This document shows positions 2,131 through 58,174 of a stretch of DNA of 64,000 bases, in pieces (the stretch's first letter is position 1; the number at the start of each line of letters is the position of its first letter). The stretch comes from Acholoe squamosa (lineage: Eukaryota > Annelida > Polychaeta > Phyllodocida > Polynoidae): positions 45,883,250 to 45,947,249 of the forward strand of contig OX439051.1 in NCBI GenBank assembly GCA_949317995.1. The letters are read 5' to 3'. The notes below the pieces were generated by a model, which ran no database searches, was not told the origin of the DNA, and saw only the letters and a program-made list of their open reading frames with translations. Position numbers and translations under genes: made by a program.

Positions 2131-3740
2131 TCAATTATATTCTTTTTCCGTCTTTTTCATTTTCGAGTGCCCAGCATAGGCATCATTCGGTTTCTTCTTT
2201 TTTCTTTCAGGTACCCCGTCGAGAGGTGTTTCGGAATCCTCATCCCGATCATCCATTCCAGGTGGGTCACTTAATTCTGGCAAGTCTATAATTTCCAGCA
2301 ATTCCATAACATTCAGACCTAATCCATACATTTCTTCAGCTAACTCCCTACCCCTGTATGGTCTCAACTCTTCTATGTGGCATCTTCTTACATTGCCATA
2401 CAGGTCCTTTATGAAGCAGGTAGTTTCCGAAATAATCCGAGTTATGACATGTGGGCCGTCCCAACTAGATACAACCTTTAGTCTGTCTAGGGGTTTATAG
2501 AATCTAAGGACCCTATCTCCCACCCTGAAGAATCTAGGTTTTAATCCAGTGTCATAACCCACCTTCTGCCATCTCGCTGACTTTTCTAATTGATTCCTGA
2601 CTAATTCATAAGCTTTCTTAAAATTATCTCTCAAAGATTCCACGAACATAATGGAACATGGGGTCTCAGGACTGATTCCGATTACCCTGAATACCAAATC
2701 TGCCGGCATTATGATGTCTTCACCATTGACCAGCATGTTCGGAGTGCAGTTAGTGGAAGCATGCACCGTACTATTGTACGCATACACCACAAAATCACAC
2801 TGAATATCCCAATCATCCTGGTAATTATATACTAATGGTTTCAGAACTTGTAGTAGGGTTTGGTTGAACCGTTCTACTAAACCATCTGACTGAGGACGGT
2901 ACGGATTCGTACGTGTCTTACGTGTCCTATTCTACGCATGCACCACAAAATCACACTGAATATCTTAATCATCCTGGTACTTATTTACTAATGGTTTCAG
3001 AACTTGTAGTAGGGTTCGGTTGAACCATTCTACTAAACCATCTGACTGAGGACGGTACGGATTCGTACGTGTCTTACAGATCGCTAAATACTTACACATT
3101 TCCTGAAACAACTCTGACTCAAATTCCCTTTCTTGATCACTGTGAAGCGCTAGGGGAACCCCATATTGCAGCACCCAGCCGCTCACGAATGCTTTCGCAC
3201 AAGTGATAGCTTTGTGATCCTTCAAAGGGAATACTTTCGTATATTTCGTATAGTAGTCGCAGACGACCATCATACAAGTGTTATCTCTAGGGGTTGTATT
3301 AAACCCGCTAATGATATCAATTGCAATTCTGGCGAAGCGCATTCCGAATAATTCTTGAACCAATGGGTTCTTTCCTAACCCATCTCCGGGTTTATTCTTA
3401 CAACATTCGGGACAAGTGGCGATCCACCTTAGCAAATCCCCACTTATTCCCGCCCAATAGTATCTCCGGGAAAGTCTTTCCAGAGACCTACTCTTTCCGA
3501 AATGACCACTGGTCACGTGGCCATGGCAATAATACATAATATCCCAGTGCATAGCACTCGGGATGACAATCTGAAGAATCTTATTAGTTGGACTAATTTT
3601 CCACCTACATAAGATTCCTTCTCTGACCTCCAGCTCGGCCCATTGTGCCAGAAGTCTTCTCATTTCCCTATTCTCCATACTGATAGCAGGGCGAACAGGT
3701 TTAATTCCGGATGGAACTGTTTCCAGGAGTTTCTTGGTGA
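2131..3740 (-). pseudogene. E3 pol: integrase and C-terminal tail (fossil)
   Basis: This is the integrase part of a Ty3/Gypsy polyprotein, which joins element cDNA to host DNA. Visible features are the N-terminal zinc-binding block (CHGH...SGHFG...CPECC), the catalytic-core landmarks (IAIDIISGF, LHSDQ, RPQSDGLVE) and a C-terminal region ending in a basic Lys-rich tail. It reads on the minus strand with the gag and RT pieces of E3. The copy looks broken in more than one place. It is close in sequence to the E2 and E1 integrases but belongs to a different subfamily, as its LTRs also show. Confidence 0.8.
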
Positions 3741-19777: not shown

Positions 19778-19790
19778 GGTCACGGCACCA
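19778..19790 (-). other. E2 primer-binding site (tRNA-His type)
   Basis: The sense sequence TGGTGCCGTGACC starts one base after the 5' LTR. From memory of metazoan tRNA-His, whose 3' end is GTCACGGCA plus CCA, the first twelve bases are complementary. The same site is seen in E3 and E5, with one change in E1 and in E4. Confidence 0.75.
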
Positions 19791-30221: not shown

Positions 30222-31110
30222 CTAGTTTTCCTTATCTTCTATTGTGGAAAAACTCATCTGCACCCTATATACCGGTTTCTCTGCCGTACATTTGGCAGCG
30301 AAATGACCGAATTCCTGACATCGGTAGCACCGCCTCTGGGATTTATCTACCCGCGGGCATCTCAGAGCATCCGTTAACCGGGTAACCAAATTCTCCATAA
30401 AATCACCCTGAGCAGTTGATACTGCTACTTGAGGAGTAGAGAAGGTGGGTAACTGCGGTACTGGTAATTGTGATACCGGTTTCTGTGGTACCGGTAGCTG
30501 GGGTGCTGCCGGTGAGGCATTACTGGTAGGTTTATTGAAGTTAGATTTCTTCTTTAAGCCTATGTTTCGGTATCGTTTCTGCCGATAGTACTTACCAGCA
30601 ATCTGTGCTGATCCTATATATTCTCTGTTTTCATCAGAGACATATTCATGATCAGAATCCAATGATTCGGATTCGACTGCTGCGGTGTATTCCGGTGCAG
30701 GGATATCACTTTTAACTGCCGAAGCTCTTGCAGGGGGTGCATTAGCACCTAACAATCGCTTCTTTCTATTGTAATTTTCTATAGCCAGGAACAGATCATT
30801 GAAAGAAGTATCATCTTTCCATTCATCCCAGGCTATTGTCTTGTGCTCCGAGTCTCGGAGACCGGCAAAGAATTGAGTGAATAACTCCTGTATCCAACAC
30901 TCATCGTCATATTCCCAATTTGGTCTAGCTTTACTAAGCAAGTCCTGCAGTTCTAACCCGAAAAGCTTGTGAGATTCTTTGGGTTTCTGCGTCCGTCTCT
31001 TGAATGTAATCCAAGGATCTTCCCGGATGATGGAACCGAATAAATAACAGGCACACTTTAACTACTCATCATAGGTGCCATCGATCCCATATTCTTTTCT
31101 CCACCAGTTG
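30222..31110 (-). pseudogene. E1 gag, capsid end and zinc knuckle (fossil)
   Basis: This is the C-terminal half of gag: capsid end (LLSKARPNWEYDDECW, FFAGLRDSEHK), a VSDEN..EYIGSAQIAGKYYRQKRY block also present in E2 and E5, a Pro/Gln-rich linker with repeated QLPVPQ, and a CCHC knuckle (CYRCQEFGHFAAKC). It is separated from its N-terminal half by E4, with AGGG on both edges. Broken. Confidence 0.75.
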
Positions 31111-36133: not shown

Positions 36134-36480
36134 AATATCAATTAGATAGTCTGATTTTTTATGGTGTGGTTTTACAGAGGGTTTTAAAATAGTTGACCCT
36201 GATTGTAGAACTAGTCATGATTGTAAAAATTATAAATCTTTTCTGGAAGGCAAATTCTATGATGAAATGTGTAGAATTATTCTTAATGAGCTGTCTGAGG
36301 GTTTAGTGACTCAGACTGAGGCCAAGCCCACATGTATTCACTCCCTAGGTGGTGTTGAAAAATCTAATGGTAAATTGAGACCTATAACTGATTGTAGTAT
36401 GCCGGCTGAAATTTCCAACAATAATTATATGAAAACAACTATAAAAAAATTTTCATATAATTCTATTAATACTGTGACAG

Positions 36481-36732
36481 TGTAGGGGCCAGCTCTGGCT
36501 GTAAGTCCATGGCGGTAGGCCATCTGCCCCGTTCCGGTTGCACCAGCCCTCAGGGGCTGGTCAGCTGGTATAAGCTGCCCCCCTTGTGTATTATACCGAT
36601 CCAGATGTAGGTGGAAGGTAGAGAACGTCAGGTCTGGGGAAGTAGCTCAGAGGTAGAGCTTCCGCTTCGAAGTTGGAGGGTCCCGGGTTCGAGTCCCGGT
36701 TTCTCCAAAGACGTTTTCTGCCGACCTCTACA
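36481..36732 (+). repeat. 5' LTR of the TRIM
   Basis: 252 bp with TG...CA ends. The first part holds a GC-rich hairpin (CAGCCC ctca GGGGCTG near 36545). The second part holds the tRNA-like unit and its T4 terminator. Confidence 0.9.
36636..36707 (+). tRNA. tRNA-like gene inside the TRIM 5' LTR (Ala-like body, CGA in anticodon position)
   Basis: The 72-nt sequence folds as a cloverleaf: 7-bp acceptor stem (GGGGAAG with TTTCTCC, two G-U pairs), 4-bp D stem (GCTC/GAGC), 5-bp anticodon stem (TCCGC/TTGGA, with one mismatch next to the loop), loop TTCGAAG, 5-nt variable loop, and a perfect T stem (CCGGG/CCCGG). The B box is GGTTCGAGTCC, a perfect match to the Pol III consensus. The A box TAGCTCAGAGG is near-consensus. 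A TTTT terminator follows at 36714-36717. The body resembles metazoan tRNA-Ala, but the loop reads CGA. Serine tRNAs have a long variable arm, which this lacks, so decoding is doubtful. Confidence 0.75.
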
Positions 36733-36733
36733 C

Positions 36734-36747
36734 TGGTGGAGAAACCG
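36734..36747 (+). other. TRIM primer-binding site, complementary to the LTR-encoded tRNA
   Basis: TGGTGGAGAAACCG begins one base after the LTR. A tRNA ending CGGTTTCTCC plus discriminator A plus added CCA pairs with all 14 bases. The tRNA at 36636-36707 (and 37413-37484) ends exactly so. Confidence 0.75.
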
Positions 36748-36962
36748 AGTTGGTCCTGACCCGTGTGAGGGGGGACTACGAGAACTCGGTACCTGGGCTG
36801 GTATGACACAAATGCGATTCGATCTGCTAAGTACTGGGGGACTTGGAAACAGGTGGCACCCTCAGAGATTCCTGGGAACAGGAGTTGACTACGCTGAAGG
36901 TGACTCAGTACTAGTCCTGGGTGTCTGGTTCAGAGCCCTAGGTTGAATCTGATAGGGAGGAG

Positions 36963-37110
36963 TGTAGGGGCCAGCTCTGGCTGTAAGTCCATGGCGGTAG
37001 GCCATCTGCCCCGTTCCGGGTGTACCAGCCTAGTCACCTGGCACCTGGTGGTAGCTGCCCCTATGTGTGTCATACCAATCCAGGTGTAGGTGCCTGGAAC
37101 GGTATAATAC
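36963..37110 (+). repeat. Third, partial LTR copy in the TRIM interior
   Basis: It starts TGTAGGGGCCAGCTCTGGCTG like the LTRs and matches them for roughly the first 60 bases and again around GTAGGTG, then diverges where the tRNA would begin. A purine run (GGGAGGAG) precedes it, as with a true 3' LTR. The DNA after it resembles the DNA after the left LTR, so LTR start plus interior appear to have been duplicated and then diverged. Confidence 0.6.
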
Positions 37111-37257
37111 AGATACGCTTCGACCCTGGCAGTACTGTGTACTGGTAGGTCAACTGGGAAGTCAGGAGTGCCTCACACTGCTTGATAAAGCCCAATCGAT
37201 CTGGTTGGGAGGAATGCTTGGTGCTGGTTGGCCATGGTTGAAGCTGGTTGGGAGGAG

Positions 37258-37509
37258 TGTAGGGGCCAGCTCTGGCTGTAAGTCCATGGCGGTAGGCCAT
37301 CTGCCCCGTTCCGGTTGCACCAGCCCTCAGGGGCTGGTCAGCTGGTATAAGCTGCCCCCCTTGTGTATTATACCGATCCAGATGTAGGTGGAAGGTAGAG
37401 AACGTCAGGTCTGGGGAAGTAGCTCAGAGGTAGAGCTTCCGCTTCGAAGTTGGAGGGTCCCGGGTTCGAGTCCCGGTTTCTCCAAAGACGTTTTCTGCCG
37501 ACCTCTACA
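37258..37509 (+). repeat. 3' LTR of the TRIM
   Basis: Identical by eye to 36481-36732; preceded by the purine run GGGAGGAG. Confidence 0.9.
37413..37484 (+). tRNA. tRNA-like gene inside the TRIM 3' LTR
   Basis: Same 72-nt sequence as 36636-36707, with the same A box, B box and TTTT terminator (37491-37494). Confidence 0.75.
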
Positions 37510-38515
37510 ACAGCACAGTTGGATAAGAATGATTTCATGAGTGTCATAGATTTAAAATCTGCGTATCGTTTAATTAATGTTTATGGTCCCCATGTAGGGC
37601 ATCAAGAGTTCAGATGGAACTTTGGTGATGGTGAAAAATTTTACGAAAGTAACCGATTGACTTTCGGTTTAAAATGTGCTCCATATATATTTAATATTAT
37701 CTCTGATTTTATTACGGCAGTGGCAAAATTCTATGGTGTAGATATAGTAGTTAATTATTTAGATGATTTTATCATCATTGCTGCTACTGAGGATGAATGC
37801 TTGAGTGAAAGAGATTTATTGATAGAGTGTATGGAATATATGGGCTTTGTTGTGTCAAAGGAGAAAGTAACTGAACCAAGCCAAAGGTGTGTTTTTCTTG
37901 GTATTACTATTGACTCCACGAAAATGGAATTGTCTTTACCTCAGAAGAAATTAGATAAAGTGGCTAATGCATTGAATGAATGTATGGGTAAGAAGTTTGT
38001 ATCTAAAAAATCCCTTCAGAATTTTTTATCTCTGTGCCAAGACTAAAAACAGAGGGGTCACTGAATGGAGAGACCCAAAAAGATTTGATTTCTGTGGAGT
38101 ATTTGATTGTCATAATATTATATTAAACGACAATGAGAAAACAACTATGTACTCAGACTCATGTATTCAAGGCTTTGGTGCTTGGTTCGGTGAAGATTAC
38201 CTTTACGGTACATGGTTTTTCATGGAAATATATGCCACTTATATTAAATCAGAGGACAATGTATTAGTTGATCAATTGTCTAGGCTAAATTATAAAGGTG
38301 TTCCTAAAAAGTGTAGGAAAACACTGTATGAGACTAACATAATTATGTTGTTATAATTGCAGATCTGAGAAGGCTGAGAGAGAGGAGGAGAAAATTATTA
38401 CATAGGGGTGTTGCAGAGTCAACTCGTAGAACTCGTAGACAACAGTTTAGAAGGTATTAAAAATTTTGCAAAAAAAATAGTTTCACTCCATTTCCTTGTT
38501 CTCCTCCTCAGGCTG

Positions 38516-44104: not shown

Positions 44105-44682
44105 TGTCAAGCGATGAATTTAATAAAATAAACTAGCAACTCGCCAATAAATTACAATATCTTTATTGTTAAGCAGATGATAACGCTCCATCACTGACAA
44201 AGAAGGATGTATGGTTTTTGCGAAACATATTGATAGTTCATATTGATCTAAAAGTAAATGACAATTGACAAGCTCGATACACTGAGTTCCATGTTGGCCT
44301 TACCTCTCAAGATATACAGAATCCATCATGAGTGTCTAATCAACTAATGCATTGGTCCCTCAGTTCTACACGGAGTGGTCGTGTGTAGACTGGCTCCAGG
44401 CTAACCAACTGTATCTCCTACTCTAGCCCTGCGCACTCTGACTCTGGGTGCCCTGTGCTCATTGTTTATATTACTCTTATCCGGTGAACGGATATTCCCT
44501 AGGTTTCTATTTCATATCACTATCCGATCCCTTAGGATAACAGGCTGGAGGGCTCGTCATGATGGGGAGAGTATCCTATTATTTAGGATACCATAGTGTA
44601 GAGTACACTCTTATGGTGAGTGTAGGTTTTAAATAGGCGATTAATAATTGGTTATTAATTTAGTGCAATTTATAGTCTAACA
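44105..44682 (-). repeat. 3' LTR of B2
   Basis: 578 bp; in sense it begins TGTTAGACTATAAATTGC and ends GCTTGACA. An AATAAA-type signal is present. The polypurine tract AAGGGGGGGGCTA adjoins it at 44683-44695. Confidence 0.85.
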
Positions 44683-46155: not shown

Positions 46156-46440
46156 GCTGGGGCCTGTTTTTCCCTATCTTACGGACAGATAAGGACGTCC
46201 GTATGTCACATATGGACCCCCATATGTTGGAAAATCAAATACGGCTAGGGGGGGTACCAGGTCGTATCCTAAAAGTGACATACGGATGTCCGTATGTAAC
46301 ATACGGACATCCGTAAGTGATATACGGACGTCCATATGTGACATATGGAGGTCCGTATGTGTCCGTATGTAGTGTCCATATCTGATATTATTTTGTATCA
46401 TTTTAATACATTTTAACATAAGGAAAAACAGGGCCCTGGA
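46156..46440. mobile_element. 285-bp MITE with TIRs and internal palindromic array
   Basis: The terminal inverted repeats are about 26 bp (left GCTGGGGCCTGTTTTTCC, right TCCAGGGCCCTGTTTTTCC inward) with TA at both edges (46154-46155 and 46441-46442). The interior (46181-46382) is built of palindromic units around CATACGGACGTCCGTATG. No coding capacity. The TA duplication suggests the Tc1/mariner superfamily. Confidence 0.7.
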
Positions 46441-57438: not shown

Positions 57439-57454
57439 CCGCTGTTCTCCACCA
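57439..57454 (-). other. B2 primer-binding site
   Basis: Sense TGGTGGAGAACAGCGG, two bases after the LTR. The first ten bases equal the TRIM primer site. I do not name the tRNA with confidence. Confidence 0.55.
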
Positions 57455-57456
57455 AA

Positions 57457-57799
57457 TGTCAAGCGATGAATTTAATAAAATAAACTAGCAACTCGCCAAT
57501 AAATTACAATATCTTTATTGTTAAGCAGATGATAACGCTCCATCACTGACATAGAAGGATGTATCGTTTTGCGATACATATTGATAGTTCATATTGATCT
57601 AAAAGTAAATTGACAAGCTCGATACACTGAGTTCCATGTTGGCCTTACCTCTCAAGATATACAGAATCCATCATGAGTGTCTAATGAATTGGTCCCTCAG
57701 TTCTACACGGAGTGGTCGCGTGTAGACTGGCTCCATCTCCTACTCTAGCCCTGCGCACTCTGACTCTGGGTGCCCTGTGCTCATTGTTTATATTACTCT
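57457..57799 (-). repeat. 5' LTR of B2 (part), interrupted by E5
   Basis: It matches 44105-44470 with a few substitutions and small indels. E5 starts at 57800, and the rest of this LTR would resume beyond the window. Confidence 0.85.
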
Positions 57800-58174
57800 T
57801 GTAGAGGTACGTATTGTTTAACCATAGAGTTGGGTACCGTCTGACGTGGCGGGTGAGTCGAGTCGTCGGACGTTCCTCAGGTTCCGGATAGGTGGCAGCA
57901 CCGATCCGGGTCTGTGGGGACATCTGACGACGAACACCTGGGTCCTTATATAAAGCCCAGGGCTCAGCCGCTACGTCAGAGGCCCTTCTGGCCTCCGAAG
58001 AATGTAGACCACCATTAATCATTATTAGCTGCCCCTTCTATACTATCGGGTAGCCGTGAGTGTGCATTAGTAATAAATCTAACCGTTGGCATACACTTGA
58101 AACACCGTCTTACTCTTTCTTTCCGAATCGTAAGACCCGAACCCCCAGGTCCGTAAGGCCACAACCCCCTTACA
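57800..58174 (+). repeat. 5' LTR of E5
   Basis: The 375-bp LTR starts TGTAGAGGTACG and ends CTTACA, and has the TTATATAAAG box near 57951 in the conserved E-type core. Confidence 0.9.

Follow-up and report, generated by a model that had tools for sequence, protein, structure and literature searches.

The 1,029-bp TRIM at 36481-37509 carries in each of its LTRs a tRNA whose 3' end, once CCA is added, pairs with all 14 bases of the element's own primer-binding site (PBS). It is near certain that this is a Helenus-type TRIM. A tRNA in the LTRs of TRIMs has already been described under that name, and what is new is the complementarity between the LTR tRNA and the PBS (PMC10886601). That the LTR tRNA primes the family's own PBS is a reading for which belief and doubt are, in our judgement, evenly balanced. 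The LTR elements primed by tRNA that are known to us depend on host tRNAs. With somewhat more doubt than belief, this may be the first natural retrotransposon family with a tRNA primer of its own, in which thousands of LTR tRNA genes would supply the primer, the PBS would be adapted to it and the tRNA body would be losing its decoding function.

The window, i.e., the whole stretch of 64,000 nucleotides that was analysed, corresponds to C17:45883250-45947249 of a genome of 1,481,437,319 bp in 63 contigs. The two LTRs, at 36481-36732 and 37258-37509, each span 252 bp from TGTAG to CTACA and are 100% identical. The features of the element are listed below; TAGCTCAGAGG is an A-box-like motif and GGTTCGAGTCC a B box.

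36477-36480 (no strand): 5' target site duplication ACAG, from sequence and LTR comparison
36481-36732 (+): 5' LTR, 252 bp, same as the 3' LTR, from sequence comparison
36636-36707 (+): tRNA of the 5' LTR, Ala-like body, anticodon CGA (ARAGORN), from ARAGORN, Rfam and comparison with host tRNAs
36643-36653 (+): A-box-like TAGCTCAGAGG, from sequence
36686-36696 (+): B box GGTTCGAGTCC, from sequence
36714-36717 (+): TTTT run, candidate Pol III terminator, adjoining the tRNA of the 5' LTR, from sequence
36734-36747 (+): PBS TGGTGGAGAAACCG after spacer C at 36733, 14/14 complementary to the LTR tRNA 3' end plus CCA
36955-36962 (+): internal PPT-like GGGAGGAG ahead of a diverged LTR start, from sequence
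36963-37092 (+): diverged duplicate of the LTR's initial ~133 bp at about 85% identity, lacking the tRNA and the PBS, from alignment
37250-37257 (+): polypurine tract GGGAGGAG preceding the 3' LTR, from sequence
37258-37509 (+): 3' LTR, from sequence comparison
37413-37484 (+): tRNA of the 3' LTR, from ARAGORN and Rfam
37491-37494 (+): TTTT run of the 3' LTR, from sequence
37510-37513 (no strand): 3' target site duplication ACAG, from sequence and LTR comparison

The original prediction had described two identical 252-bp LTRs between ACAG duplications, a purine run ahead of the 3' LTR, a 72-nt tRNA with A and B boxes and TTTT in each LTR, and a tRNA end that with CCA pairs with a 14-base primer site. 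All of this was borne out: the coordinates and the 100% identity of the LTRs hold, the purine run is GGGAGGAG at 37250-37257, the tRNA scores 53 bits with the Rfam model RF00005 (E 1.5e-08 for the 64 kb), TTTT starts at 36714 and 37491, and the 14/14 pairing is the best in the window. The TTTT beside the LTR tRNA would be in keeping with a short transcript made by Pol III. The scarcity of such runs was also considered as evidence for Pol III and was rejected, as the only runs do follow the tRNAs but shuffled sequences contain an expected 0.51 per unit, so that the scarcity is not significant.

Within 36481-37509 no stop-to-stop frame of at least 150 aa is present, and one frame of this length (37423-38046) extends out of the 3' LTR into the flank. 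The second PPT and LTR start inside the internal region (36955-37092, 83-85% identical) are probably the trace of recombination with a relative. When the flanks are joined without the element, a single open frame and a clean empty site are obtained within a reverse transcriptase gene. The part of this gene that was used in a protein search yielded four relatives, with PF00078, and by eye the gene is DIRS-like.

ARAGORN calls the LTR tRNA of the window Ser-CGA. Its body, however, is similar to those of the TGC/CGC genes for host tRNA-Ala and not to Ser, and it shares with this class the length and the GTTC T-loop. The acceptor stem differs from that of the host class in two base pairs, 6-67 and 7-66, and at both the PBS has the base that matches the LTR tRNA. 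RF00005 scores are 47.7-53.5 bits for LTR tRNAs (10 loci), compared to 49.4 for host Ala-AGC, 68.4 for TGC and 70.4-72.7 for CGC. The isolated LTR tRNA folds barely better than shuffled sequences (z -1.40, 16/200 equally good), and its minimum-energy fold lacks the acceptor stem, whereas all four host Ala forms that were tried (4/4) retain theirs; both results speak against a good tRNA fold. In the 165-nt leader the fold constrained to the cloverleaf is 11.1 kcal/mol less stable than the free fold.

The constraint on the tRNA was assessed in 115 LTR tRNA copies (47 distinct), of which 40 distinct ones could be aligned without gaps (TAGCTCA-like A box) and seven were dropped; in this set the 3' end was pre-selected, and the B box and the alignable A-box region were so in part. 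No pre-selection affected the acceptor 5' strand: it reads GGGGAAG in 34/40, and the acceptor stem is paired at each of its seven positions in 36/40. Variability peaks in the anticodon arm (0.138 versus 0.054 in the acceptor 5' strand), while the A and B boxes are conserved, in regions that were partly pre-selected. A variable anticodon arm together with a kept acceptor stem is the opposite of what decoding would need and speaks for the self-primer. The family contains LTR tRNA bodies of several kinds, with the anticodons CGA, GCA, TGA and CAA (ARAGORN). The G3-U70 pair and A73, which confer tRNA-Ala identity, are retained in the LTR tRNAs (36636-36707 in the window and L050-L068 elsewhere) despite Ser, Cys or Leu anticodons (ARAGORN). 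If charged, LTR tRNAs with Ala identity and such anticodons could misread codons.

Base 15 is the first mismatch between the LTR tRNA 3' end plus CCA and the PBS, and the TGG inside the PBS fits an untemplated CCA. When both strands of the whole window were searched, the next-best sites were ten with 11/14. One PBS-like match at 31106 (-) was dropped, as by our own reading it sits in gag coding sequence. The calculated duplex energy with the PBS is -26.6 kcal/mol for the LTR tRNA, -23.8 for host Ala-AGC, -20.7 for TGC and -21.3 and -20.7 for CGC.

A search of the genome DNA, in which 40/3,792 candidates were scored and 65 matches listed, provided the further copies that the original prediction had asked for: at least 19 full-length copies at 99-100% identity, including 36481-37509. 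The family has apparently been active recently in its host, and the element was probably moved by an element of the Gypsy type. The tRNA 3' end pattern GTTCRANNNNCGGTTTCTCCA occurs at 3,410 places in the genome. Of the first 100 matches listed, all on C1, 39 were examined, and by eye the U5 of the LTR follows the tRNA in 38 of them. At the remaining place (L104) the tRNA body is the same but no LTR U5 follows it, and no independent host gene was apparent among the 39. Another 28 loci near copies of the family were examined as well. A sampled 210 kb of C1 contained neither a family copy nor any tRNA, and viral contigs gave nothing usable when scanned with the PBS-LTR junction, with the start of the LTR or with a Gypsy-like reverse transcriptase from the window.

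A set of 54 junctions (31 distinct, including 36481-37509) was compared, restricted to those in which the tRNA ends exactly in CGGTTTCTCCA and the PBS matches in 9/14 bases or more, which leaves out 3' and solo LTRs. With all junctions pre-selected for the exact CGGTTTCTCCA end, the PBS is exact in 44/54 (21/31 distinct). Position 11 is A in 53/54, and positions 15 (A) and 16 (G) are each kept in 52/54. The PBS stays constant over differing internal sequences and over spacers C, T or G. Because the junctions were chosen by the exact CGGTTTCTCCA end, the set shows a near-constant PBS and not joint change of PBS and tRNA. The PBS runs just 10 bases in L034 and 13 in L036, and the only C at position 11 is found in L034, whose PBS seems to have been disrupted by a small deletion. 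L033 and L035 each contain three successive LTR tRNAs, i.e., tandem LTR-internal-LTR-internal-LTR forms. At C1:2995620-3025992 seven LTR tRNA matches lie within 30 kb and two of the spacings are 7,071 bp, which suggests a tandem array containing the element.

For the host primers the comparison covered tRNA-Ala, with 20 of the 208 places of the host tRNA-Ala pattern in the genome: 11 AGC, 6 TGC and 3 CGC. The 11 Ala-AGC genes end in CGGGTTCTCCA and match 13/14 PBS bases, the first 10 perfectly. The six TGC genes and two of the CGC genes (end CGGCATCTCCA) as well as the remaining CGC gene (end CGGCGTCTCCA) match 12/14. Among these 20/208 places, the comparison of the primer site with host tRNA-Ala ends therefore came out in favour of the LTR tRNA, with 14/14 against 13/14 for the best host gene. 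A host tRNA-Ala with the 3' end of the LTR tRNA was sought with GCATGN{13}GTTCRANNNNCGGTTTC and discarded, as the single place is degenerate and no tRNA by ARAGORN. On C12:51451336-51480597 (-) a dense tandem array of matches to the tRNA-Ala-AGC pattern was seen among those listed, with spacings often of about 291 and 391 bp; the array may extend further.

In the mechanism that we propose, the LTR tRNA gene would be transcribed by Pol III as far as the adjacent TTTT, and the transcript would then be trimmed and CCA-tailed. The tRNAs from many family copies would be pooled as primers for first-strand synthesis at the family PBS, while genomic RNA would arise by read-through or from a Pol II start. 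The PBS would in this case be written by the LTR tRNA and not by a host tRNA. A difficulty for this mechanism is that processing of the tRNA out of genomic RNA would presumably remove the R repeat, and therefore enough genomic RNA would have to escape processing. The anatomy, the 14-base self-match (44/54 junctions) and the host tRNA-Ala comparison (20/208) of the original interpretation thus stand, whereas its self-primer may or may not operate as envisaged.

The copying of the primer into the PBS bears on this mechanism. When retroviruses reverse-transcribe their RNA, plus-strand synthesis copies 18 nt of the primer to give the new PBS (PMC13191261), and in HIV-1 a mutated PBS returns to the sequence that complements the native primer (PMC11181671). 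Because the primer is copied, priming by host Ala-AGC should write C at position 11, and TGC or CGC should write G; the A that is observed matches neither. For the first 14 PBS bases the argument thus favours the LTR tRNA over Ala-AGC. By the same logic the LTR tRNA, which has C at the corresponding base, should write G at position 15, where A is found (52/54). Base 15 counts against the self-primer and is not explained by the LTR tRNA, unless the copying ends early or repair tends to retain the older strand.

It is rather unlikely that the element is an ordinary Helenus-type TRIM, in which the LTR tRNA, of Ala descent, acts only as a Pol III promoter and host Ala-AGC primes with one mismatch tolerated. 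The host tRNA is just one base worse than the LTR tRNA (13/14 vs 14/14), which weighs against the self-primer, as does Kojima's report of no self-complementarity in Helenus (PMC10886601); it starts with ten perfect bases and forms a duplex of -23.8 kcal/mol. Ala-primed partners may also exist in this genome, since the window contains a Gypsy-like element with a PBS that fits Ala-AGC. Gypsy-like by eye and on the minus strand (LTRs 44105-44478 and 57457-57800, 90.6% identical), this element has the PBS TGGTGGAGAACAGCGG at 57454 (TGGTGGAGAAC...), of which the first 11 bases are perfect to host Ala-AGC and the first 10 are common with the TRIM PBS; it is a candidate for an Ala-primed autonomous partner. 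However, Ala-AGC priming should have turned position 11 into C, yet A stands there in 53/54 junctions over several internal types, and the sole C belongs to the apparently broken PBS of L034.

The conservation of positions 15 and 16 would suit a different primer that has escaped notice, namely one with the 3' end CTCGGTTTCTCCACCA that would pair with all 16 conserved bases (16/16); it could be mitochondrial, come from a form of the LTR tRNA that is now extinct, or be a tRNA of the host whose T-loop is unusual. The conservation of TGGTGGAGAAACCGAG indeed extends as far as base 16 in copies that differ in their internal sequences, and a tRNA with T at base 62 would pair with 16 PBS bases. However, the pattern GTTCRANNNTCGGTTTCTCCA, which describes such a 16-base primer with GTTCRA T-loops, occurs at 25 places in the genome, and no independent host gene was apparent in the 20 examined: 19 have the LTR tRNA body, in some cases decayed, and L116 has the last bases only. 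We consider this primer improbable. More improbable still is intramolecular priming or a hairpin, as in Tf1-type self-priming, where the LTR tRNA would pair through its 3' strand with the PBS of the same genomic RNA (11 bp, 29-nt loop). A perfect 11-bp inverted pair does exist (36697-36707 with 36737-36747), but the PBS also matches the CCA, which is not encoded, and the middle pair has a predicted probability of 0.004 in the 165-nt leader.

Kojima (2024) gave the name Helenus (TRIMp3) to TRIMs that carry a tRNA in their LTRs, of which the animal members have 4-bp duplications and a Gypsy-like PBS, and expected a Pol III promoter function without validating it (PMC10886601). The element at 36481-37509 likewise has, in both LTRs, a sequence derived from a tRNA and containing the A and B boxes, a PBS and a PPT but no mobility protein, a 4-bp target site duplication (ACAG) as in animal Helenus and a length within 311-1263 bp; a Pol III promoter in its LTR is presumed from the motifs. 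It differs in the complementarity of the PBS to its own LTR tRNA (14/14; exact in 44/54 junctions), which Kojima considered for Helenus and reported for none (PMC10886601); this lack was an observation on Helenus and does not define the class. No other report on such self-complementarity was recognised in the full-text literature searched, where the class appeared only in PMC10886601. The family is an exception to this sole published test that we found, and its own match beats the host tRNA-Ala genes examined. If the LTR tRNA does act as primer, the family would be freed from host tRNA, and a mobile element could retain a tRNA for priming while the anticodon part drifts. The tRNA gene counts of such genomes may be inflated by LTR copies, as the 3,410 tRNA 3'-end matches illustrate here.

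Cassandra TRIMs have 5S rRNA, which is not a tRNA primer, where this family has a tRNA, and in Tf1-type self-priming the element RNA supplies its own 5' end as primer and not a tRNA. Cassandra is similar in using a small-RNA gene in the LTR as a Pol III promoter, validated there and presumed here (PMC10886601), and in its tandem multi-LTR forms (PMC7215508), which are represented here by L033 and L035. In Tf1-type elements (PMC6934838) the primer also comes from the element itself; in contrast, the PBS here covers the CCA as well. A precedent for a supplied primer is that in MLV vectors an artificial PBS was served by a matching tRNA-like primer (Lund 1997, cited in PMC3185771). Such vectors combine a PBS unlike natural tRNAs with a matching primer gene, but they are man-made and the primer comes from outside the element.

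A further Gypsy-like family was seen in the window at 19790 (-) and about 58175 (+), with the LTR end TTACA, spacer C and the PBS TGGTGCCGTGACC, which we take to be tRNA-His-like. It shares the LTR end TACA and the spacer C with the TRIM but differs in the PBS. At 46272-46372 weak miRNA matches on both strands, under the gathering score, are probably a simple repeat.
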